Below, one piece after another: positions 1 through 23,775 of a stretch of 31,366 nt of DNA (its first letter is position 1; the number at the start of each line of letters is the position of its first letter). Source of the stretch: a virus; IMG/VR virus record IMGVR_UViG_3300027773_000205, positions 1 to 31,366 of that record, one strand, 5' to 3'. Below the pieces are notes generated by a model. The model saw only the letters and a program-made list of their open reading frames with translations, made no database searches and was not told the DNA's origin. Position numbers and translations under genes: made by a program.

Positions 1-1413
1 TCAATGGCAATGCCGCATGCGGTGTGCGTGGTGTACGGCTCTATCATAGCATACAGGCGGAGGTGGCGTCTCACCGGGTTGAAGGCTCGCCAGGAGTTCA
101 TAGTCCTTCCTGAGAAGTGTATAGACGACGCCGATAAGCTGGCCGATGATGCGGCCCAGCACTTTATTTTTACCACGATACCGGCCCAGTCGCTCATCGT
201 AGCGGCAGATTCGTGGCACGAGGCGCAGATACAGGTCGCGCCACTCGCTGTCATGGCGGACGGCGAGCCAGGCGGCGAGATACATGGTCTGTTTGATGGT
301 TCTATTGCCGCCCTTTGTGAGCGGCATCGAGTCCAGCGTCGTCCCTGTTTGACGCTGATCTGGCGACCAACCGAAGAACGCGCGCAGCTTTGCCGCGCTT
401 TCAAAATTCGCGATAGAGCCAATGGAGGCCAGAATCGTCGCTGCGGCAATCTCCGAAATTCCTGGGATCGAGGTCAGGATCTGGCCTTCGCGTGTAGAGC
501 TTATGATCTCGCCGATCCTGGAATCGAGTTCCTCGATGTGCTCAGTGAGCAGGCGCAGCTCTGCGATGAGTTGTTTCTTCTCAAGATGCATCGACGATCT
601 GCGCGCTGGGTCACGCGTGCCAATGCTCTCTCTCGCAAGTTCCTGAAGGCGCAAAAGGCCAGCTCTGCCTGGCTTTACCCCGGTACAGCAGGCAAGCAAC
701 TCCCCGATGCTCGCCTCGGCCAGCTCCTCGCGGCTTGCAAAACGGCTGCGAATATTGAGCGCCGACTCGCAGGTTGGATTTTTAAAAACCTGCGCAAATT
801 CGGGGAATACTTCATCTACGATGGCAGTCAGTTGATTTTTTCTCTGCGCGATTTCGCGCACCAATTCCAGGCGTCGCCTGACCAGGCCGCGCAGAAGATT
901 CGCCGTCTCGCTCTTTCGCAGAGCCGGGCGCGCGATCTGCGCGGATTCGGAGACTTGCACACGAAGCGCGATTTGATTATAGAGAAGATTCGCGAGGCTC
1001 TGCGCATCTCGCGGATCGCTCTTGATCCTGGAAAGACGCTCTTGCACATGCAGTTCGTAGACGGCGATGCCTGCATCGAGAAGATACTGCTCGATGGCCT
1101 TGTGGTAGTGTCCAGTACGCTCCAGGACAACGCTGCACTCCGAAAGCGGAGCATAGAATTGCATCGCTTGTACCAGACTCTCAAAGCCAGATCTCGAGTT
1201 CTCGAAGGCGAGCACGGGGCAGGACTCGAAACGGCGGTGCTTCTTGAGCAACTCACTGCTTACGAAGGCAGCGACGTGGCTGTTTTTCGCCACGTCAATA
1301 CCAATGAAAAGAGGCAAAGATTCCGACTCGGGCGTGATGAGAGTTTTCGCGATCATTGCGCATTCATCCTTCCTTATGGTGTTGTGGGGGTGAAGAGAAG
1401 CGCTGCTTGCCAC
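1..1413 (-). CDS. IS110-family transposase (DEDD recombinase)
   Basis: The protein has the two IS110 domains. The N-terminal RuvC-like domain shows GIDVAKNSH (D40), LERTGHY (E98) and SDPRDAQSLA (D133, D136), the four acidic positions of the DEDD site. The C-terminal transposase_20 domain shows LTSIPGISEIAAATILASIG and then FFGWSPDQRQTGTT with KGGNRTIKQ. Family knowledge: IS110 enzymes recombine DNA through a RuvC site plus a C-terminal serine. Here the residue in the usual [S]G position is Thr356 (QTG), so the nucleophile is conservatively changed. The length of 470 aa is slightly above the usual 330-450. Met20 (position 1356) is an alternative start, with an AAGGAAGG sequence upstream. The stop codon is at the window edge, so the right end of the element cannot be seen. 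Confidence 0.93.
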   Translation of the reverse strand: MASSASLHPHNTIRKDECAMIAKTLITPESESLPLFIGIDVAKNSHVAAFVSSELLKKHRRFESCPVLAFENSRSGFESLVQAMQFYAPLSECSVVLERTGHYHKAIEQYLLDAGIAVYELHVQERLSRIKSDPRDAQSLANLLYNQIALRVQVSESAQIARPALRKSETANLLRGLVRRRLELVREIAQRKNQLTAIVDEVFPEFAQVFKNPTCESALNIRSRFASREELAEASIGELLACCTGVKPGRAGLLRLQELARESIGTRDPARRSSMHLEKKQLIAELRLLTEHIEELDSRIGEIISSTREGQILTSIPGISEIAAATILASIGSIANFESAAKLRAFFGWSPDQRQTGTTLDSMPLTKGGNRTIKQTMYLAAWLAVRHDSEWRDLYLRLVPRICRYDERLGRYRGKNKVLGRIIGQLIGVVYTLLRKDYELLASLQPGETPPPPVCYDRAVHHAHRMRHCH

Positions 1414-2754: not shown

Positions 2755-4695
2755 ATGGCGACCTACCCTCGCTGTCTTATTGAGCGGCTTGACCCCAGAT
2801 TTTTTAAGCTGCGCGATGATTTACTCTACCTCTCCCCGCGCTGCGACATGGCGAACGCCGGAGCACTGCGGGTGCTGGAGACGAAGACCGATCAGCGCAT
2901 TCAATACATTGGCGAGAAATACGGCATTCCCGATGGCTACATTCCGCCCGACGACTATCTCTGGCTTGATATATCGCTCCACGAATTTGAAAAGCTCTCA
3001 TTGGGACTGCGCAAGCGCGCCTCCTATGCCCGCGCCCTCGCTGATCGCGCACCAGAGACTGAGGTGCCTTCCCTCATCCAGCTTGGCTATGTCAGAGCGC
3101 GCATCGTCGCCTACTATGACCGGCTCGACAAACCAATGGCTGCGACCAGGATCTACCGCGATCATCTTGGTCGCTCGTTTGTCATCGTCGCTGATATGGC
3201 CGGGCAGTATTTTGGCCGCGATGGCCGTGTACACAATGCGATAGCCGAAGGCTTCACACGGGTTTCCCGGCAATTTCTGCTGCTCTCTGATAATGTCAAC
3301 GCAGCCATCGCGGCCCTTGATGACCGTGACCCGCCAGAGCCGCTGCCGCGCTGGGAGATAGAGGACAGCGGTGGCAGAAGACACAAGAAAGGCACTGTCA
3401 ATCAGGCGACGACGAATCCCAAGCTTGACAGCGCCCCGACATTGAATGACTCTTTGCAGATCTCTGCCAACGAGATCCACGCCAATCGAGGGGGTATCCT
3501 TGAAATGGCAGGAAGTTCATTCATCTCAGAGAATATCACAGCCGTCGATGATCTGTCTACCTCTGAGGCTGCCCCGGAAGCCCAAAATTCTCAGGGTTTC
3601 GACGGAAATTCATCAAAAACAGCGCTGTCCAAAAATGCATGGGGGGCCACTAAAAATGCATGGGGGGGTGATGAAAGTGCAAGGGGCGCGCCTAAATCTT
3701 CCGGGGCCTCGCCCAAAAAGGCGCCCTTAAAGAATCAGAATCATTACAGAGATCTCACAGGAGATTCTAAGAAAGATTCTGCGCAGGCGCCTCTTTCTTT
3801 CTCTCTTTATCGAGAGAGCATTGATTTTGAAAAACTCCGCCAGGCCGAATGGTGCCCGGAAACCGTCGTCGGCCTCTTATCGCACATCCTCGCCATCCCT
3901 GCACAATCTGAGGTAAGCCCGGATGCCTGGCGCGCCGAGTGCCTTGAGCCTGCGGCGCGGCTCATGGAGCAGACGGCGGGCATGGCGCCTTCGCGCGCCT
4001 GGGAACGCATCGATACCGTTGCGCGCTATATGGCAACGCCGGGATCGCCGTCGTGGTGGCAGCAGCCTGTCACGGGTGGCGGGCGTACCACAAAGTCGCC
4101 TGTGACACCTAAAAACGTCGCTGACAACTTTGAACGGCAATATGCCGACTATGACCGTCATCGCCATCTCTGGCATCCTACAGACTGGACACCCTACGAT
4201 GGCCCGCCGCTCACCGAGTACGAGCGTGGCTATGGCGGCATCGATCCTGCTCCGCCTGTCGAAGATACAGCGCCCACCGCCGTACTCGGCGAGCAGGCGG
4301 AGTTGGGCGAAGCATTGCCCACAACCGACGAAGTGCCGATAGTCGAGATCGCGCCGGCCTCCCAGGCGATGGCGCAGCCTTTGTACGCCATGTCACGCGA
4401 GGAGGCCGCTGATCTCGCCGATCTCATCGCGGCGCAATATCCGATGCTTTCGCTCGGCTATCGCGAGGATTACGAGGATGGCAGTGTCGCGCTCTGCGTC
4501 GAGCATGCAGAGGACGCGTGGATTACGCTGCGTAGCCACAACGATTGGTATAATCCGCCGCCGATTGTACAGCGCCTTATCAAGGCTGCCATTGCTTTCG
4601 GCGAAAGCCGTGCTGGCGAAGCTAGCGAAGGGAACAAGGAACACGATGGAGGCGCCGAGACTGGCGCTATATGCGAGGAAATGAGGACAACATGA
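2755..4695 (+). CDS. Rep-like replication protein with internal iterons
   Basis: A 646-aa protein. Residues 1-130 contain the winged-helix-like segment shared with the small upstream gene. Residues about 200-350 are low complexity, with a repeated KNAWG motif, and encode DNA repeats that look like iterons. Residues 360-450 form a helical domain (FEKLRQAEWCPETVVGLLSH ... SPSWWQQP). The C-terminal third is acidic and Pro-rich before a last folded part. Start choice: ATG at 2755 has GGAGAAAGAAG upstream, better than the ATG at 2710. The plan of an N-terminal DNA-binding domain, flexible linker carrying the origin, and a C-terminal partner-binding domain resembles lambda O and plasmid/phage initiators. 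I recognise no diagnostic motif, so initiator function is inferred. Its stop overlaps the next start (ATGA). Confidence 0.6.
   Translation: MATYPRCLIERLDPRFFKLRDDLLYLSPRCDMANAGALRVLETKTDQRIQYIGEKYGIPDGYIPPDDYLWLDISLHEFEKLSLGLRKRASYARALADRAPETEVPSLIQLGYVRARIVAYYDRLDKPMAATRIYRDHLGRSFVIVADMAGQYFGRDGRVHNAIAEGFTRVSRQFLLLSDNVNAAIAALDDRDPPEPLPRWEIEDSGGRRHKKGTVNQATTNPKLDSAPTLNDSLQISANEIHANRGGILEMAGSSFISENITAVDDLSTSEAAPEAQNSQGFDGNSSKTALSKNAWGATKNAWGGDESARGAPKSSGASPKKAPLKNQNHYRDLTGDSKKDSAQAPLSFSLYRESIDFEKLRQAEWCPETVVGLLSHILAIPAQSEVSPDAWRAECLEPAARLMEQTAGMAPSRAWERIDTVARYMATPGSPSWWQQPVTGGGRTTKSPVTPKNVADNFERQYADYDRHRHLWHPTDWTPYDGPPLTEYERGYGGIDPAPPVEDTAPTAVLGEQAELGEALPTTDEVPIVEIAPASQAMAQPLYAMSREEAADLADLIAAQYPMLSLGYREDYEDGSVALCVEHAEDAWITLRSHNDWYNPPPIVQRLIKAAIAFGESRAGEASEGNKEHDGGAETGAICEEMRTT
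3631..3835. other. putative replication origin inside the rep gene
   Basis: AAAAATGCATGGGGGG occurs at 3631-3646 and exactly again at 3652-3667. A degenerate third copy (GAAAGTGCAAGGGGCG) lies at 3673-3688 and a weak fourth near 3694. The period is 21 bp, two helical turns. Downstream, 3721-3835 is clearly AT-rich against its surroundings (runs such as GAATCAGAATCATTACAG and CTTTCTTTCTCTCTTTATC), as expected for an unwinding region. Iterons plus an AT-rich region within an initiator gene is the organisation of lambda ori in gene O. The repeats also encode NAWG motifs, so protein-level repetition is the alternative explanation. Confidence 0.45.
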
Positions 4696-5641: not shown

Positions 5642-6199
5642 ATGCGAGGAGCGACAACGAACACGGCGAAAAGCGGCGGCGAGCCTCTGGCTCCGACGTT
5701 TCTCTATGGCTTACTCGAAGTTGGCACGGGCCTATTCTGCTCATTTCAGCAGCTTATGACGACGCATGACAGCATCGTCGGCATTCTGCAAGGTGGAATC
5801 ATTGTCCCCTCGCACATGAGCGCGCAGGCTCTGCTCGCGTTCATTCAGAGCAATATGGACAAAGATAATCGTATTGCCTGGACGGTAGCAATCGTCACAC
5901 AGGTTCTGTATTGGGGCGCGATGCTGCACGCCGGGCCATTCCAGCGAAGGCTCCTACACCGGCTGACGATCTGGGGATTCTTCGGCCTGGAGATTGTCAC
6001 CGACCTCTGGTATAGCATCGCAACGAACACGACGCTCGGCGGCGCGTTCGTATGGATCTTTAATTTTGGTAACGGCGGCTGGCTGGTCAGCCTCTGCTAT
6101 ATCGCAGCGATGAGTGCCGGATCGATCTTCCTGGTATGGCGCGGCCTCTCGCGGCTCGGCAAGTGTGCAAGTGTGGTCTTTGCGAGCGAAAACCACTAA
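5642..6199 (+). CDS. integral membrane protein
   Basis: A 185-aa protein with about four hydrophobic segments: near residues 20-40 (FLYGLLEVGTGLFCSF), 80-97 (WTVAIVTQVLYWGAMLHAG), 110-130 (LTIWGFFGLEIVTDLWYSIA) and 138-168 (GAFVWIFNFGNGGWLVSLCY and AAMSAGSIFLVW). The start follows GGAGGTGTAGCC. It lies directly before the membrane-anchored ATPase gene with only 13 bp between them, so the two products may form one membrane complex, possibly for DNA movement or segregation. That is inference; the sequence carries no family motif I know. Confidence 0.75.
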   Translation: MRGATTNTAKSGGEPLAPTFLYGLLEVGTGLFCSFQQLMTTHDSIVGILQGGIIVPSHMSAQALLAFIQSNMDKDNRIAWTVAIVTQVLYWGAMLHAGPFQRRLLHRLTIWGFFGLEIVTDLWYSIATNTTLGGAFVWIFNFGNGGWLVSLCYIAAMSAGSIFLVWRGLSRLGKCASVVFASENH

Positions 6200-6212: not shown

Positions 6213-7724
6213 ATGGGCGATGAGCACGAAGAGGACAATGATGGCTTTGTCCCTCTCTCCACGGGAACCGAGGCGGGCATCGCAGCGTTCTTCGTGGGCG
6301 CGCCGTTTCTGGGCATGGCTTCGGCCATGCTCGGACTCGGCGAGGCTGGTATCCTGGCCGGCGTTATCGGCGGCGGGGCGCTCGCAATCGCCGCAAAGGT
6401 CGCGGTTGATGGCAATGCAGGAAAGAATCCTCACGTTACCCTGCCTGGGCTTACACAGCTACGCTCAGCCAACTGGCGCGCGCTGTTCGTGCCTACCGAT
6501 ATCGATGACCAGGTGCAGACCTTGACAACGAACGAAGCGTCGAGTCTTTCTCACAATGAAAGCGAAGAATACATGGATCTTGGCAGCACCTTGCGTCCGC
6601 ATGCCAACGCGATCTTCTCTGGCCGCAAGGCGCTCTTTGGTGCTTCGGATGCCGGCAAGTCGAATGCTGTCGCCGTGATCTGTGAGGAGATCGCGAAGTT
6701 CGGCGCGCCGCTCTTCCTGCTCGATACCGAGGATGAATACCGCGCGCTCTGCGATAAGCGGTACTTTCCGCGCCCGGTGTGGGTGGAGAGTGCTCGCATC
6801 GCGCCATCGCAGGCATACGACTTTGCGCAGTGGGCGATGAATAAGCGCGCCCAGGTCGTCGTTAACCTGCAAAGCTACGAGGATGACGAGGCGGCCTGGC
6901 TGATGATCGATCTTATCAAGGGTATCCGAGCATGGGAGGAATCGCATGATCGCATCCCATGCGAGGTCATCTTAGACGAGGCGACGGTGTGGCTGCCGCA
7001 GAATGTCGCTGAGAGCACCCTTGCACGCATCATGGTCGCTGATCCAGAGGCAGGCGAGGAAGGCAAGCAGATCTCATTGCTGGCGCTCTTACAGCGGGCC
7101 TTCTTTTCAGTCGTCGTGCGCAGAGGACGCAAGCGCGGCATGGGCTTTACCTTCGCTGCGCAGCGCATCGCTGAGATCGACAAGCGCGCGCTGCAAGCAT
7201 CCTGGCTGATCCTGATGAAGCAGGCACAGCCGGCGGATTTCCGCATCTACAAGGAATTTGGCATCGAGGGAGACGCAGCGCTCTCTCTTGCCAAAGGCGA
7301 GGCGTTCGTCCAGGCCCCAGGCAAAACAATGGAACGACATCAATTCCGGCTGCGTCGCTCCCCGCATGGCGCCCACGCGCCGGGATTGGCGGAGCTGCGC
7401 AAGGCCGTTTCCGCGAGCGTTTCCCAACCTGGAAACAGCGGAAACGACGGAAACACCAATGGAAACAGCGCGGAAACGCCTCTACAGGCCAATGCAGCCA
7501 AGATCATTACGGATGTGTTTCCTGTTTCCCAGGATGGAAACGACGACCATTCGAGCGCAGGCAATGGCCTCCCTGTTTCCCCGGAAACGCGGAAACACAT
7601 CGCCGCGATGCGCGAGGCAGGATACCCAGATCGGGACATTGCGCAGCTCGTTGGCTTATCCGGGCGCAAGTATGCGCTCTATCGGCAAGTCGTGGCATCG
7701 CTTGGCTCTACCCGCGAAGCATAG
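6213..7724 (+). CDS. membrane-anchored HerA/FtsK-like P-loop ATPase with C-terminal HTH
   Basis: A 503-aa protein. Residues 19-64 form two hydrophobic, Gly/Ala-rich membrane segments. The motor domain has Walker A FGASDAGKSN (residues 142-151) and Walker B VILDEATVWLP (D255, E256). A later conserved-looking stretch RAFFSVVVRRGRKRGMGFTF resembles the arginine/sensor region of HerA, VirB4 and FtsK motors. Residues about 400-460 are Asn/Gly-rich, and the last 45 look like a helix-turn-helix (DRDIAQLVGLSGRKYALYRQ). Start: AAGGAGGGATACGAG before the ATG. Function is probably pumping or positioning DNA at the membrane, as in plasmid transfer or segregation. Virion packaging uses the separate terminase. 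The 3' part carries the GGAAAC cluster. Confidence 0.8.
   Translation: MGDEHEEDNDGFVPLSTGTEAGIAAFFVGAPFLGMASAMLGLGEAGILAGVIGGGALAIAAKVAVDGNAGKNPHVTLPGLTQLRSANWRALFVPTDIDDQVQTLTTNEASSLSHNESEEYMDLGSTLRPHANAIFSGRKALFGASDAGKSNAVAVICEEIAKFGAPLFLLDTEDEYRALCDKRYFPRPVWVESARIAPSQAYDFAQWAMNKRAQVVVNLQSYEDDEAAWLMIDLIKGIRAWEESHDRIPCEVILDEATVWLPQNVAESTLARIMVADPEAGEEGKQISLLALLQRAFFSVVVRRGRKRGMGFTFAAQRIAEIDKRALQASWLILMKQAQPADFRIYKEFGIEGDAALSLAKGEAFVQAPGKTMERHQFRLRRSPHGAHAPGLAELRKAVSASVSQPGNSGNDGNTNGNSAETPLQANAAKIITDVFPVSQDGNDDHSSAGNGLPVSPETRKHIAAMREAGYPDRDIAQLVGLSGRKYALYRQVVASLGSTREA
7407..7596. repeat. cluster of 13 GGAAAC/GTTTCC hexamers
   Basis: GTTTCC starts at 7407, 7419, 7517, 7524 and 7575. GGAAAC starts at 7431, 7440, 7449, 7461, 7472, 7536, 7583 and 7591. 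Fewer than one would be expected by chance in 190 bp. The hexamer appears in different reading frames, coding GN, VS, ETR/RKH or FP, so repetition at the protein level does not explain it. A protein-binding array such as a centromere, loading site or origin is the likely reason. Confidence 0.6.
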
Positions 7725-7725
7725 G

Positions 7726-7755
7726 GACAAGTACCGAACAAGCGCGGTACTTGTC
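7726..7755. promoter_or_regulatory. 11-bp inverted repeat, candidate parC site 1
   Basis: GACAAGTACCG, 8-nt spacer, CGGTACTTGTC. It lies 93 bp upstream of the ParM-like gene. The inner core GTACCG-N8-CGGTAC recurs at 7804-7823 with the identical spacer length, which points to one DNA-binding protein. Confidence 0.55.
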
Positions 7756-7803
7756 TGTAGTAGAACACGCAATACCAGCAAAATAACACAGATAGACAAA
7801 GCA

Positions 7804-7823
7804 GTACCGCGCAAGTTCGGTAC
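7804..7823. promoter_or_regulatory. inverted repeat, candidate parC site 2
   Basis: GTACCG-N8-CGGTAC, the second copy of the core at 7731-7750, 73 bp away and 24 bp before the ParM-like start. In plasmid ParMRC systems the adaptor binds such repeats upstream of parM, both to hold the filament and to repress the operon. Confidence 0.5.
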
Positions 7824-8936: not shown

Positions 8937-8950
8937 TCATGGAGATCGTC

Positions 8951-9244
8951 ATGCCGAAAGATCGTGAAAAGTTTCAGTACTATGAGGTCGGAATCCTGCG
9001 CGATTCCGACCTGCACCGAGATATCCTTGCCGATGCTGAGGCATCGCAGATGCCGGGGCATATTCCGTTGCTGCTCGCCGCTCGGCTCTCTGAGTACTAT
9101 GCATTGCGTCGAGCTGGCGCGATCCCTGCTCTGTCAGCCACGGCCTCAAAACAAGGAGAGCATATCGAAGAGAGCGATGTCGTCACAGAGGCACCGCCAG
9201 GCGTGGCTGCGCAGTCAGCCCTCGGCTATGAGTGGCCGGATTAA
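8951..9244 (+). CDS. small protein, candidate ParR-like adaptor
   Basis: A 97-aa protein directly after the ParM-like gene. The N-terminal half has a short strand-like KFQYYEVGIL then two predicted helices (LHRDILADAEASQ and IPLLLAARLSEYYALRRAG), a layout compatible with a ribbon-helix-helix adaptor. The tail is acidic and unstructured, as in ParR proteins whose C-terminus contacts the filament. The start is ATG 8951 with GGAGATCGTC upstream. No sequence signature proves it; the call rests on size, position and predicted structure. Confidence 0.45.
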   Translation: MPKDREKFQYYEVGILRDSDLHRDILADAEASQMPGHIPLLLAARLSEYYALRRAGAIPALSATASKQGEHIEESDVVTEAPPGVAAQSALGYEWPD

Positions 9245-13950: not shown

Positions 13951-14013
13951 TCCAGAATGAAACGCGCAAATTCCAGAATGAAACGCGCAAATTCCAGAAT
14001 GAAACGCGCAAAT
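13951..14013. repeat. three perfect 21-bp tandem repeats (iteron-like)
   Basis: The unit TCCAGAATGAAACGCGCAAAT occurs at 13951-13971, 13972-13992 and 13993-14013 without a mismatch. It is followed by AT-rich sequence that includes a TTTAAC-GAA-GTTAAA inverted repeat (14039-14053). The 21-bp period equals that in the rep gene. Such arrays serve as origins, incompatibility regions or centromeres. Confidence 0.7.
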
Positions 14014-14223
14014 TGAGCGAGAAAGGGGGGGTAATAAATTTAACGAAGTTAAATGTGCACTCGCGCCGCTTGCTACGCGCGGCGCGGCGCGCTATGCTGC
14101 GGAAGGGCTACCTGCTGAGGCAGGCAAAGAAATTTTACCCCGCGCCTGCAAGAAGCGCATCAGGCGCGGGGGCTGTAACCAATAAGCGGTACGGGTATAC
14201 CGCTTAGAAAAGGAGTAACGCCA
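14014..14223. other. non-coding, structured region after the repeat array
   Basis: No convincing gene. It holds a G-run (GGGGGGG at 14025), the AT-rich TTTAAC/GTTAAA repeat, a GC-rich stretch, an 11-bp hairpin CCCCGCGCCTG/CAGGCGCGGGG (14138-14171), and the inverted repeat TAAGCGGTA-N6-TACCGCTTA (14183-14206) directly before the next ribosome binding site. The last repeat is a good operator candidate for the gene at 14224. Confidence 0.45.
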
Positions 14224-22662: not shown

Positions 22663-22731
22663 TCGCCGACTCCCTTGTAATCTTTGTGGTTATATTATCA
22701 CATCCTTTTTAACAGCACCGGAGGACGCCGC

Positions 22732-23775
22732 ATGCCAGGCCCGCTCATCGTCCCCGTCACCACTATTTCAAAGATCAGGCCGCACAGTAACGCCGATTCC
22801 CTCGAAATCGCTGAGGTCTTGGGATGGCAGTGTGTCGTGCAGAAGGATCGCTATAACGTCGGCGACAAAGTGGTCTATTTCCCTCCTGATACGATGCTCC
22901 CCAAAGACAAGAGCGACTCCTGGGGTATCACGCAGTATCTCGATAAGCAGCGTATCAAAGCGACGCGACTGCGCGGCGAACCATCGTTCGGCCTGGTCAT
23001 GCCGTGCGAGGATGAATCATGGCAGATCGGTGAGAACGTCGCCGAGTATTACGGCGCGACGAAGTGGGAGCCACCGACACGCGAGGCCGCCTGGGCGAAG
23101 GCGATGCGAGGGCAGGGAAAGTTCGTCGCCAACCCTGATGCACTCCCTGGTAATCCGCTCTTCCCTGAGTACACGCACATTCAGAACCTGCGCCACTTCC
23201 CTGATCTCTTCGGCGCCGACGAGCTGGTCGTCGTCACTGAGAAGCTGCACGGCACCAATTCGCGGATCGGCATCATCAACGGCGAATGGATGGCAGGATC
23301 GCACCGGGTGCGCCGTGGCGAAGGTGACGCGCTCTACTGGTCGCCACGAAAACAGCGAGGTGTCGAGGCGCTGCTTACAGCGCTAGCTTCGTATCACCGC
23401 CAGGTCGTGCTCTACGGCGAAATTCTGGGCAGTGATGTGCAGAGCTTAGATTACGGCTATGCGGGCCACGCTGGCTACAGAGCATTCGATCTCATGATCG
23501 ATGGCCGCTATGTCGAGTTCGATGTCTTCCGCATGCTCTGTGTGCGCTACGATGTTGCGATGGTGCCGATGCTCTCCTATGGCTATCCCTTCAACCTCGA
23601 TGAGATCCGCATGGAGGCCAGCGGCAAAACGGCACTCGGCTCGAATCATCTTCGCGAAGGCGTCGTGGTGAAGCCGCTCATTGAGCGCACGGATCCACGC
23701 ATTGGGCGCGCCATTGCCAAGTACGTCAGCGATGATTTTCTGCTCGCGAAGCACAGCGATTTTGCGGAGGTGTGA
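22732..23775 (+). CDS. RNA ligase of the DraRnl (Rnl5) type
   Basis: A 347-aa protein. An N-terminal OB-like part (about 1-110: LIVPVTTISKIRPHSNADSL, then GDKVVYFPPD) precedes a nucleotidyltransferase domain. The latter has the motif I lysine in VTEKLHGTN (K171), motif IV REGVVVKPL and motif V IAKYVSDDF. That order, OB domain first, is characteristic of Deinococcus DraRnl/DR_B0094 (Rnl5), which seals 3'-OH/5'-phosphate nicks in RNA duplexes. Start ATG follows CACCGGAGGACGCCGC, preferred over an upstream ATG without site. In phages, RNA ligases repair tRNAs cleaved by host defence, so anti-defence or RNA repair is inferred. Confidence 0.85.
   Translation: MPGPLIVPVTTISKIRPHSNADSLEIAEVLGWQCVVQKDRYNVGDKVVYFPPDTMLPKDKSDSWGITQYLDKQRIKATRLRGEPSFGLVMPCEDESWQIGENVAEYYGATKWEPPTREAAWAKAMRGQGKFVANPDALPGNPLFPEYTHIQNLRHFPDLFGADELVVVTEKLHGTNSRIGIINGEWMAGSHRVRRGEGDALYWSPRKQRGVEALLTALASYHRQVVLYGEILGSDVQSLDYGYAGHAGYRAFDLMIDGRYVEFDVFRMLCVRYDVAMVPMLSYGYPFNLDEIRMEASGKTALGSNHLREGVVVKPLIERTDPRIGRAIAKYVSDDFLLAKHSDFAEV

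Follow-up and report, generated by a model that had tools for sequence, protein, structure and literature searches.

Genes and features of the locus

The window analyzed here is the whole 31,366-bp stretch of IMG/VR virus record IMGVR_UViG_3300027773_000205. It was joined to an identical IMG/VR contig of 54,769 bp, which starts at window position 2755 and overlaps the window by 28,612 bp with 0 mismatches, giving an element of 57.5 kb. The features surrounding the gene for a HerA/DUF87-type ATPase (P0001) are listed in Table 1. The long open reading frame at 4-2097 was taken as mostly antisense of the IS110 transposase. The deduced sequence of P0004 revealed no family and no relative in phages or plasmids; it could be a novel replication protein. 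Elsewhere the window contains three perfect 21-bp tandem copies of TCCAGAATGAAACGCGCAAAT (13951-14014) and encodes an RNA ligase with a PHA02142 OB-fold domain (22684-23775).

Table 1. Features of the window at and around the ATPase gene.
Feature	Position	Strand	Remarks
IS110-family transposase	1-1413	-	At window edge
P0004, 661 aa	2710-4695		Upstream of ATPase, head of gene block
Membrane-protein-like gene	5642-6199		Directly upstream of ATPase
HerA/DUF87-type ATPase gene, P0001, 503 aa	6213-7724	+	Pfam and PDB matches; GGAGG ribosome-binding sequence just before ATG
Two predicted transmembrane helices of ATPase, aa ~21-43 and ~42-66	6273-6410	+	Kyte-Doolittle 19-residue means 1.6-2.05
Array of 13 GGAAACR	7407-7596	8 on +, 5 on -	Coding for ATPase linker, aa ~399-461
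Individual sites of the array	7407-, 7419-, 7431+, 7440+, 7449+, 7461+, 7472+, 7517-, 7524-, 7536+, 7575-, 7583+, 7591+		Strand follows each position
C-terminal HTH of ATPase, aa ~456-503	7578-7721	+	Weak Pfam matches; immediately after array
Palindrome GTACCG-N8-CGGTAC, copy 1	7731-7750	.	parM leader
A+T-rich stretch, candidate unwinding element	7747-7806	.	62% AT, top 1% of the element's 60-bp windows; intergenic; 150 bp from array
Palindrome GTACCG-N8-CGGTAC, copy 2	7804-7823	.	parM leader
ParM/Alp-type actin-like protein, P0002, 362 aa	7848-8936	+	Pfam ALP_N 4e-17, MreB-like_C 3e-8; PHROG partition protein 3e-24
101-aa protein, candidate adaptor	8939-9244	+	Directly after parM; ParR-like by position and helix pattern only

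The deduced sequence of P0001 matched Pfam DUF87 (1.5e-6) at residues 131-180, the nucleotide-binding site, and the HerA structure 4d2i in the PDB (5e-5, residues 135-177). HerA/DUF87 was the only family match, which places the protein in a related class of P-loop ATPases and not among the RecA-fold or SF3-type helicases; it was not recognizable as a replicative helicase or initiator. A low-confidence structure model (pLDDT 39) contained N-terminal helices at residues 17-39 and 44-68 and three helices at residues 457-497. The C-terminal helix-turn-helix (HTH) was matched by HTH_38 (E = 0.0023) and HTH_23 (E = 0.0095), both under the curated cut-offs. With an FtsK/HerA motor, N-terminal membrane helices and a weakly matched C-terminal HTH, P0001 fits the plan of TraB/FtsK proteins; TraB is membrane associated and has a C-terminal DNA-binding domain. 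The array fills the linker that separates the HerA/DUF87 ATPase domain from the HTH and encodes the peptide VSASVSQPGNSGNDGNTNGNSAET...DVFPVSQDGN...LPVSPETRK. The original prediction had named the HTH as a candidate reader of the array, a reasonable choice given that the HTH codons directly follow the array, the HTH match itself being weak.

The array is selected at the DNA level

An exact hexamer count identified 13 GGAAAC/GTTTCC sites in both orientations within the 190 bp at 7407-7596, in agreement with the original prediction, as was the use of different reading frames: relative to the start of the ORF at 6213, nine sites are in frame 0, three in frame 2 and one in frame 1. The base following GGAAAC is a purine at 13 of 13 sites, extending the repeat to the heptamer GGAAACR. 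Spacing is irregular, with 7-12 bp between sites inside groups and two gaps of 39-45 bp, and tandem-repeat calling returned no tandem array at this position.

The whole window has 21 hexamer matches compared with 9.4±2.9 in dinucleotide shuffles. The 30 sites in the joined 57.5 kb comprise the 13 in the 190 bp and 17 elsewhere, equivalent to 68/kb inside the array and 0.30/kb outside; the hexamer is therefore not equally dense elsewhere in the element, which contains no second GGAAAC array. Counted over any 190 bp, no other hexamer reached more than 6 copies in the window or more than 7 in the joined element. Selection on the DNA itself, which had been proposed from the clustering and frame use, was evaluated with a codon null in which 67 codons were recoded synonymously in 20,000 draws according to the codon usage of the phage, the protein being held fixed. 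Since recoding yielded only 0.90±0.92 sites, with a maximum of 6 in the 20,000 draws, compared with the 13 observed, the 190-bp cluster is selected at the DNA level and is functional as DNA.

GGAAACR arrays mark the 3' ends of helicase genes in other phages

Searches of viral contigs, of 84,980 species genomes and of phage records recovered no divergent relative of P0001, the only other copy being on the identical contig, and plasmids yielded haloarchaeal DUF87 proteins only (~23% identity). Recurrence of the motif was therefore searched across viral contigs. The pattern GTTTCC-N0-10-GGAAACR-N0-10-GGAAACR was scanned in 2.9 million viral contigs with CTTTGG/CCAAAG in the identical pattern as a control of the same composition, and loci with at least 6 GGAAAC/GTTTCC sites in 250 bp were considered arrays. 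The scan returned at least 117 new loci, of which at least 42 qualified as arrays (a count that includes L162, the identical contig), whereas the control returned 102 loci, none with more than 5 sites. Eight hits of an initial scan (L116, L107, L089, L066, L058, L019, L063 and L055) were simple repeats and were excluded. Scans of two further orientation patterns recovered more arrays.

Arrays were considered helicase-linked when located within -350 to +200 bp of the 3' end of a helicase gene; most were within -115 to +30 bp. By this definition, 37 of the 64 arrays among the matches listed from the first two scans of mixed orientation were linked to a replicative helicase gene, a count that was not blind in that some search models were derived from the same loci; the choice of models does not bear in the same manner on the 3'-end distance or on the two control sets. 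The same association was found for 1 of 140 loci with 3-4 GGAAAC sites and for none of the 102 CCAAAG loci. With the third scan added and L162 excluded, the numbers among the matches listed were 37 of 69 arrays versus 2 of 214 loci with 3-4 sites. The linked helicases fell into 15 clusters at 40% identity and belonged to the Pfam families AAA_25/RepA (in many cases joined to a Prim-Pol, Toprim or DnaB_N domain), VapE, DUF3987 and DUF927 (loci L139, L147, L148, L164, L172, L182, L217, L232, L234, L244, L245, L368, L370, L380, L383 and relatives). Most of the arrays are positioned just past the stop codon, and in L182, L370, L054, L245 and L542 an HTH at the C-terminus of the helicase is encoded right beside the array.

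The arrays of other phages contain the same heptamer as the window, with a purine as the next base at 190 of the 213 sites that the search pattern left free, and they occur in mixed orientation in phages of 33-71% GC. The window array has the properties by which the helicase-linked arrays are defined, namely at least 6 sites per 250 bp, both orientations and a purine after the C. No description of GGAAACR as a phage iteron or origin signal was found in the openly accessible literature, and its association with helicase 3' ends appears undescribed there.

Intragenic arrays and exceptions

Three of the other arrays are also located inside coding sequence. In L232, a phage of 71% GC, eight sites in three frames are within the C-terminal coding sequence of a DnaB/AAA_25 helicase, encoding the peptide FDVSPERFPDPFPQTFPGNVSRN...TFPGNVGETP. 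In L546 (1823-2692) eleven sites, including five GTTTCC-N5-GGAAAC units, are in the linker that follows the winged-helix-like N-terminus of an initiator-like protein, an arrangement that resembles lambda O in that the lambda origin is inside the O gene. L033 encodes a small HTH protein with ten sites in the C-terminal tail. Codon nulls for the three genes gave means of 0.9-3.1 and maxima of 5-9 sites, in each case below the observed count. The arrangement in the window thus has parallels in L232, L546 and L033, and lambda likewise has its origin inside gene O (PMC4488673); an array inside a coding sequence is therefore no novelty as such, contrary to what had been supposed. A separate observation was made at L111 (424-573), where in-register GTTTCC repeats encode the repeat peptide METEGKHYGNT in a phage protein resembling a replication organizer.

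The motif is not universal to the AAA_25 class, since GGAAAC arrays are absent from named phages with distant AAA_25 helicases, namely Nocardia NTR1 and NBR1, ReqiPine5, Trine, Gadjet and Yersinia P744. In L358 (Streptococcus phage Javan377) GGACA/TGTCC repeats were seen by eye at ~3700-3950, immediately past the 3' end of repA, the helicase gene, and appear to be a lineage-specific motif in the same position. Nor is the heptamer exclusive to replication genes, since the arrays of the related loci L197 (4440-4544) and L195 (8087-8163) adjoin the gene for the terminase large subunit (Pfam Terminase_6 in L197). These two arrays are also beside a small gene that may encode the terminase small subunit, with no helicase there, and may mark a site for packaging or reflect a further role of the motif. 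Approximately 30 array loci have no recognized helicase neighbor.

Proposed role in initiator loading

The reading that we favor, with belief and doubt about equally balanced, is that the array is an iteron-like initiator-loading site, most likely a replication origin, on which the ATPase would act by way of its HTH. The HTH would bind the 13 sites side by side and thereby gather several ATPase subunits at one spot, whereupon an ATPase ring would form on the phage DNA; unwinding or recruitment of replication proteins would start close by, possibly within the A+T-rich leader (7747-7806). The membrane-anchored HerA-type ATPase would in this way occupy the seat held by the RepA, DnaB or VapE helicase in other phages. 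Loading is envisaged by analogy with SaPI Rep and SCCmec Cch2, in which the C-terminal domain reads repeats at the gene end and loads a hexameric helicase.

A replication origin is favored because the same heptamer marks helicase 3' ends in many unrelated phages, because intragenic arrays recur in three other phages, including in the helicase of L232 and the initiator-like protein of L546, and because the 57.5 kb contain no recognized competing helicase (no match to the AAA_25, VapE, DUF3987 or DUF927 models) and no second array. It is weakened by the fact that P0001 is not a recognizable replicative helicase, by the two N-terminal transmembrane helices, which are FtsK/TraB-like and unusual for a replicative helicase, and by the weak HTH match. 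Also against it, the recognition helix of P0001, judged by eye, lacks the V-S-K-like pattern seen in several of the other HTHs linked to arrays, and cumulative GC skew has no turn at the array. The C-terminal HTH or winged-helix domains of the other helicases linked to arrays differ, so that one shared reader is no more than a possibility. The element is perhaps incomplete, in which case a helicase may sit outside the 57.5 kb. The array behaves as an iteron origin in being a cluster of short repeated sites located within the 3' part of an ATPase gene, before the HTH codons, but it was not classed as a member because the gene product is no recognizable replicative helicase or initiator.

Among known systems, oriL of phage lambda has iterons inside the gene for the O initiator and A+T-rich DNA on one flank (PMC4488673). 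The likeness is in repeated sites of initiator-binding type, here putative, embedded in coding sequence; lambda differs in having four 19-bp iterons and an initiator that is not an ATPase, compared with 13 heptamers of mixed orientation in a gene for a HerA-type ATPase. SaPI Rep and SCCmec Cch2 use their C-terminal domains to read iterons that immediately follow the respective gene (PMC7581432). These hexameric proteins share with the window an ATPase gene with short repeats at its own 3' end, but are recognizable replicative helicases with the iterons past the gene (AAGTG for Cch2), whereas the window protein is HerA-type and membrane-anchored with the array before the HTH codons. The arrays at AAA_25, VapE and DUF3987 genes have the same heptamer, likewise in both orientations and where an ATPase gene ends; they differ in that the helicase families are not HerA and in that most are just beyond the stop codon, few (L232, L546 and L033) being intragenic.

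Alternative readings

The alternative that survives best, although we consider it doubtful, is that the array is a loading site similar to clt or KOPS for a TraB/FtsK-like, membrane-anchored pump of double-stranded DNA, used for moving the phage-plasmid between cells or compartments or for clearing it from a septum. Replication is favored by the identity of the motif and translocation by the protein family, P0001 being an HerA/FtsK-superfamily motor with two N-terminal transmembrane helices and a C-terminal HTH. A membrane-protein-like gene is directly upstream and parM is downstream. Streptomyces TraB, a motor of the same FtsK/HerA superfamily, forms its hexamer on short repeats, the 8-bp TRS repeats at clt (PMC4170104). 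The repeat sequence is nevertheless a different one, the heptamer matching the replicative-helicase arrays of many phages and neither clt nor KOPS. The sites also run in both directions (8 +, 5 -), unlike KOPS, a polarity signal of similarly oriented sites. TraB serves conjugation, whereas the element, a tailed phage, has genes for terminase, portal, capsid and lysis, and no other transfer gene was recognized in it.

It is unlikely that the array is read by another protein, such as a factor found in many bacterial hosts or a different HTH protein of the phage, for starting replication or assembling a nucleoprotein complex. Such a reader would account for a heptamer common to phages of 33-71% GC with unrelated helicases and differing C-terminal domains, and for the two arrays beside terminase genes. 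We know of no such protein that reads GGAAACR, and the arrays keep close to the 3' end of one gene and are not freely placed, which favors the protein encoded there.

The original prediction had also considered a centromere, and a parC site bound by a small adaptor for a ParM-like filament is very unlikely. The array ends 250 bp before parM and the ParM/Alp identity is solid, providing the actin-like ATPase of a type II partition system (ALP_N 4e-17), but the link comes down to this adjacency. The leader of parM has its own pair of GTACCG-N8-CGGTAC palindromes (7731-7823), the only two copies in the 57.5 kb, which may serve the parM operon as an operator or a parC-like site and are a better-placed parC candidate than the GGAAACR array. 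The small gene after parM encodes a protein with no family match, for which a low-confidence model (pLDDT 50) contained two helices at residues 24-35 and 42-58. A small adaptor gene after parM and a site in the leader are the usual place and make-up of such a partition locus. Since the parM locus looks self-sufficient, the GGAAACR array is probably not its centromere; no other inspected GGAAACR array is known to adjoin parM. What stands of the predicted protein-binding array is its type, a loading site being among the surviving readings, and not the ParM centromere.

That the array is a by-product of a repetitive Gly-Asn-rich linker, produced by protein selection or slippage and with no function as DNA, can be dismissed. 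Although the linker is rich in Gly, Asn and Ser and probably unstructured, with Gly-Asn encoded by six of the sites, a protein-level or low-complexity origin is ruled out by the use of all three frames and both strands and by the codon null (0.9 sites, never more than 6), in addition to which the spacings vary with no tandem array called and the purine follows at every site.

Implications for phage replication

Taken further than the initiator-loading site itself, a tentative proposal, with the chances against it, is that GGAAACR arrays are an undescribed signal for the start of replication that tailed phages share widely, in combination with many unrelated hosts and families of helicase, and that in the window phage a membrane-anchored HerA/FtsK-type motor serves as the helicase or initiator, the origin being located between its motor and DNA-binding domains. 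If an HerA/FtsK motor is the initiator, initiation of replication would be tethered to the membrane. To our knowledge, the replication origins of most environmental phages are unknown; with the seven-base array at helicase 3' ends, they could be called straight from sequence across at least 15 helicase families. The results also raise the question of how unrelated helicases and hosts came to use one signal, for which the window phage would be the odd case, an HerA-type membrane ATPase with the signal inside its own gene.
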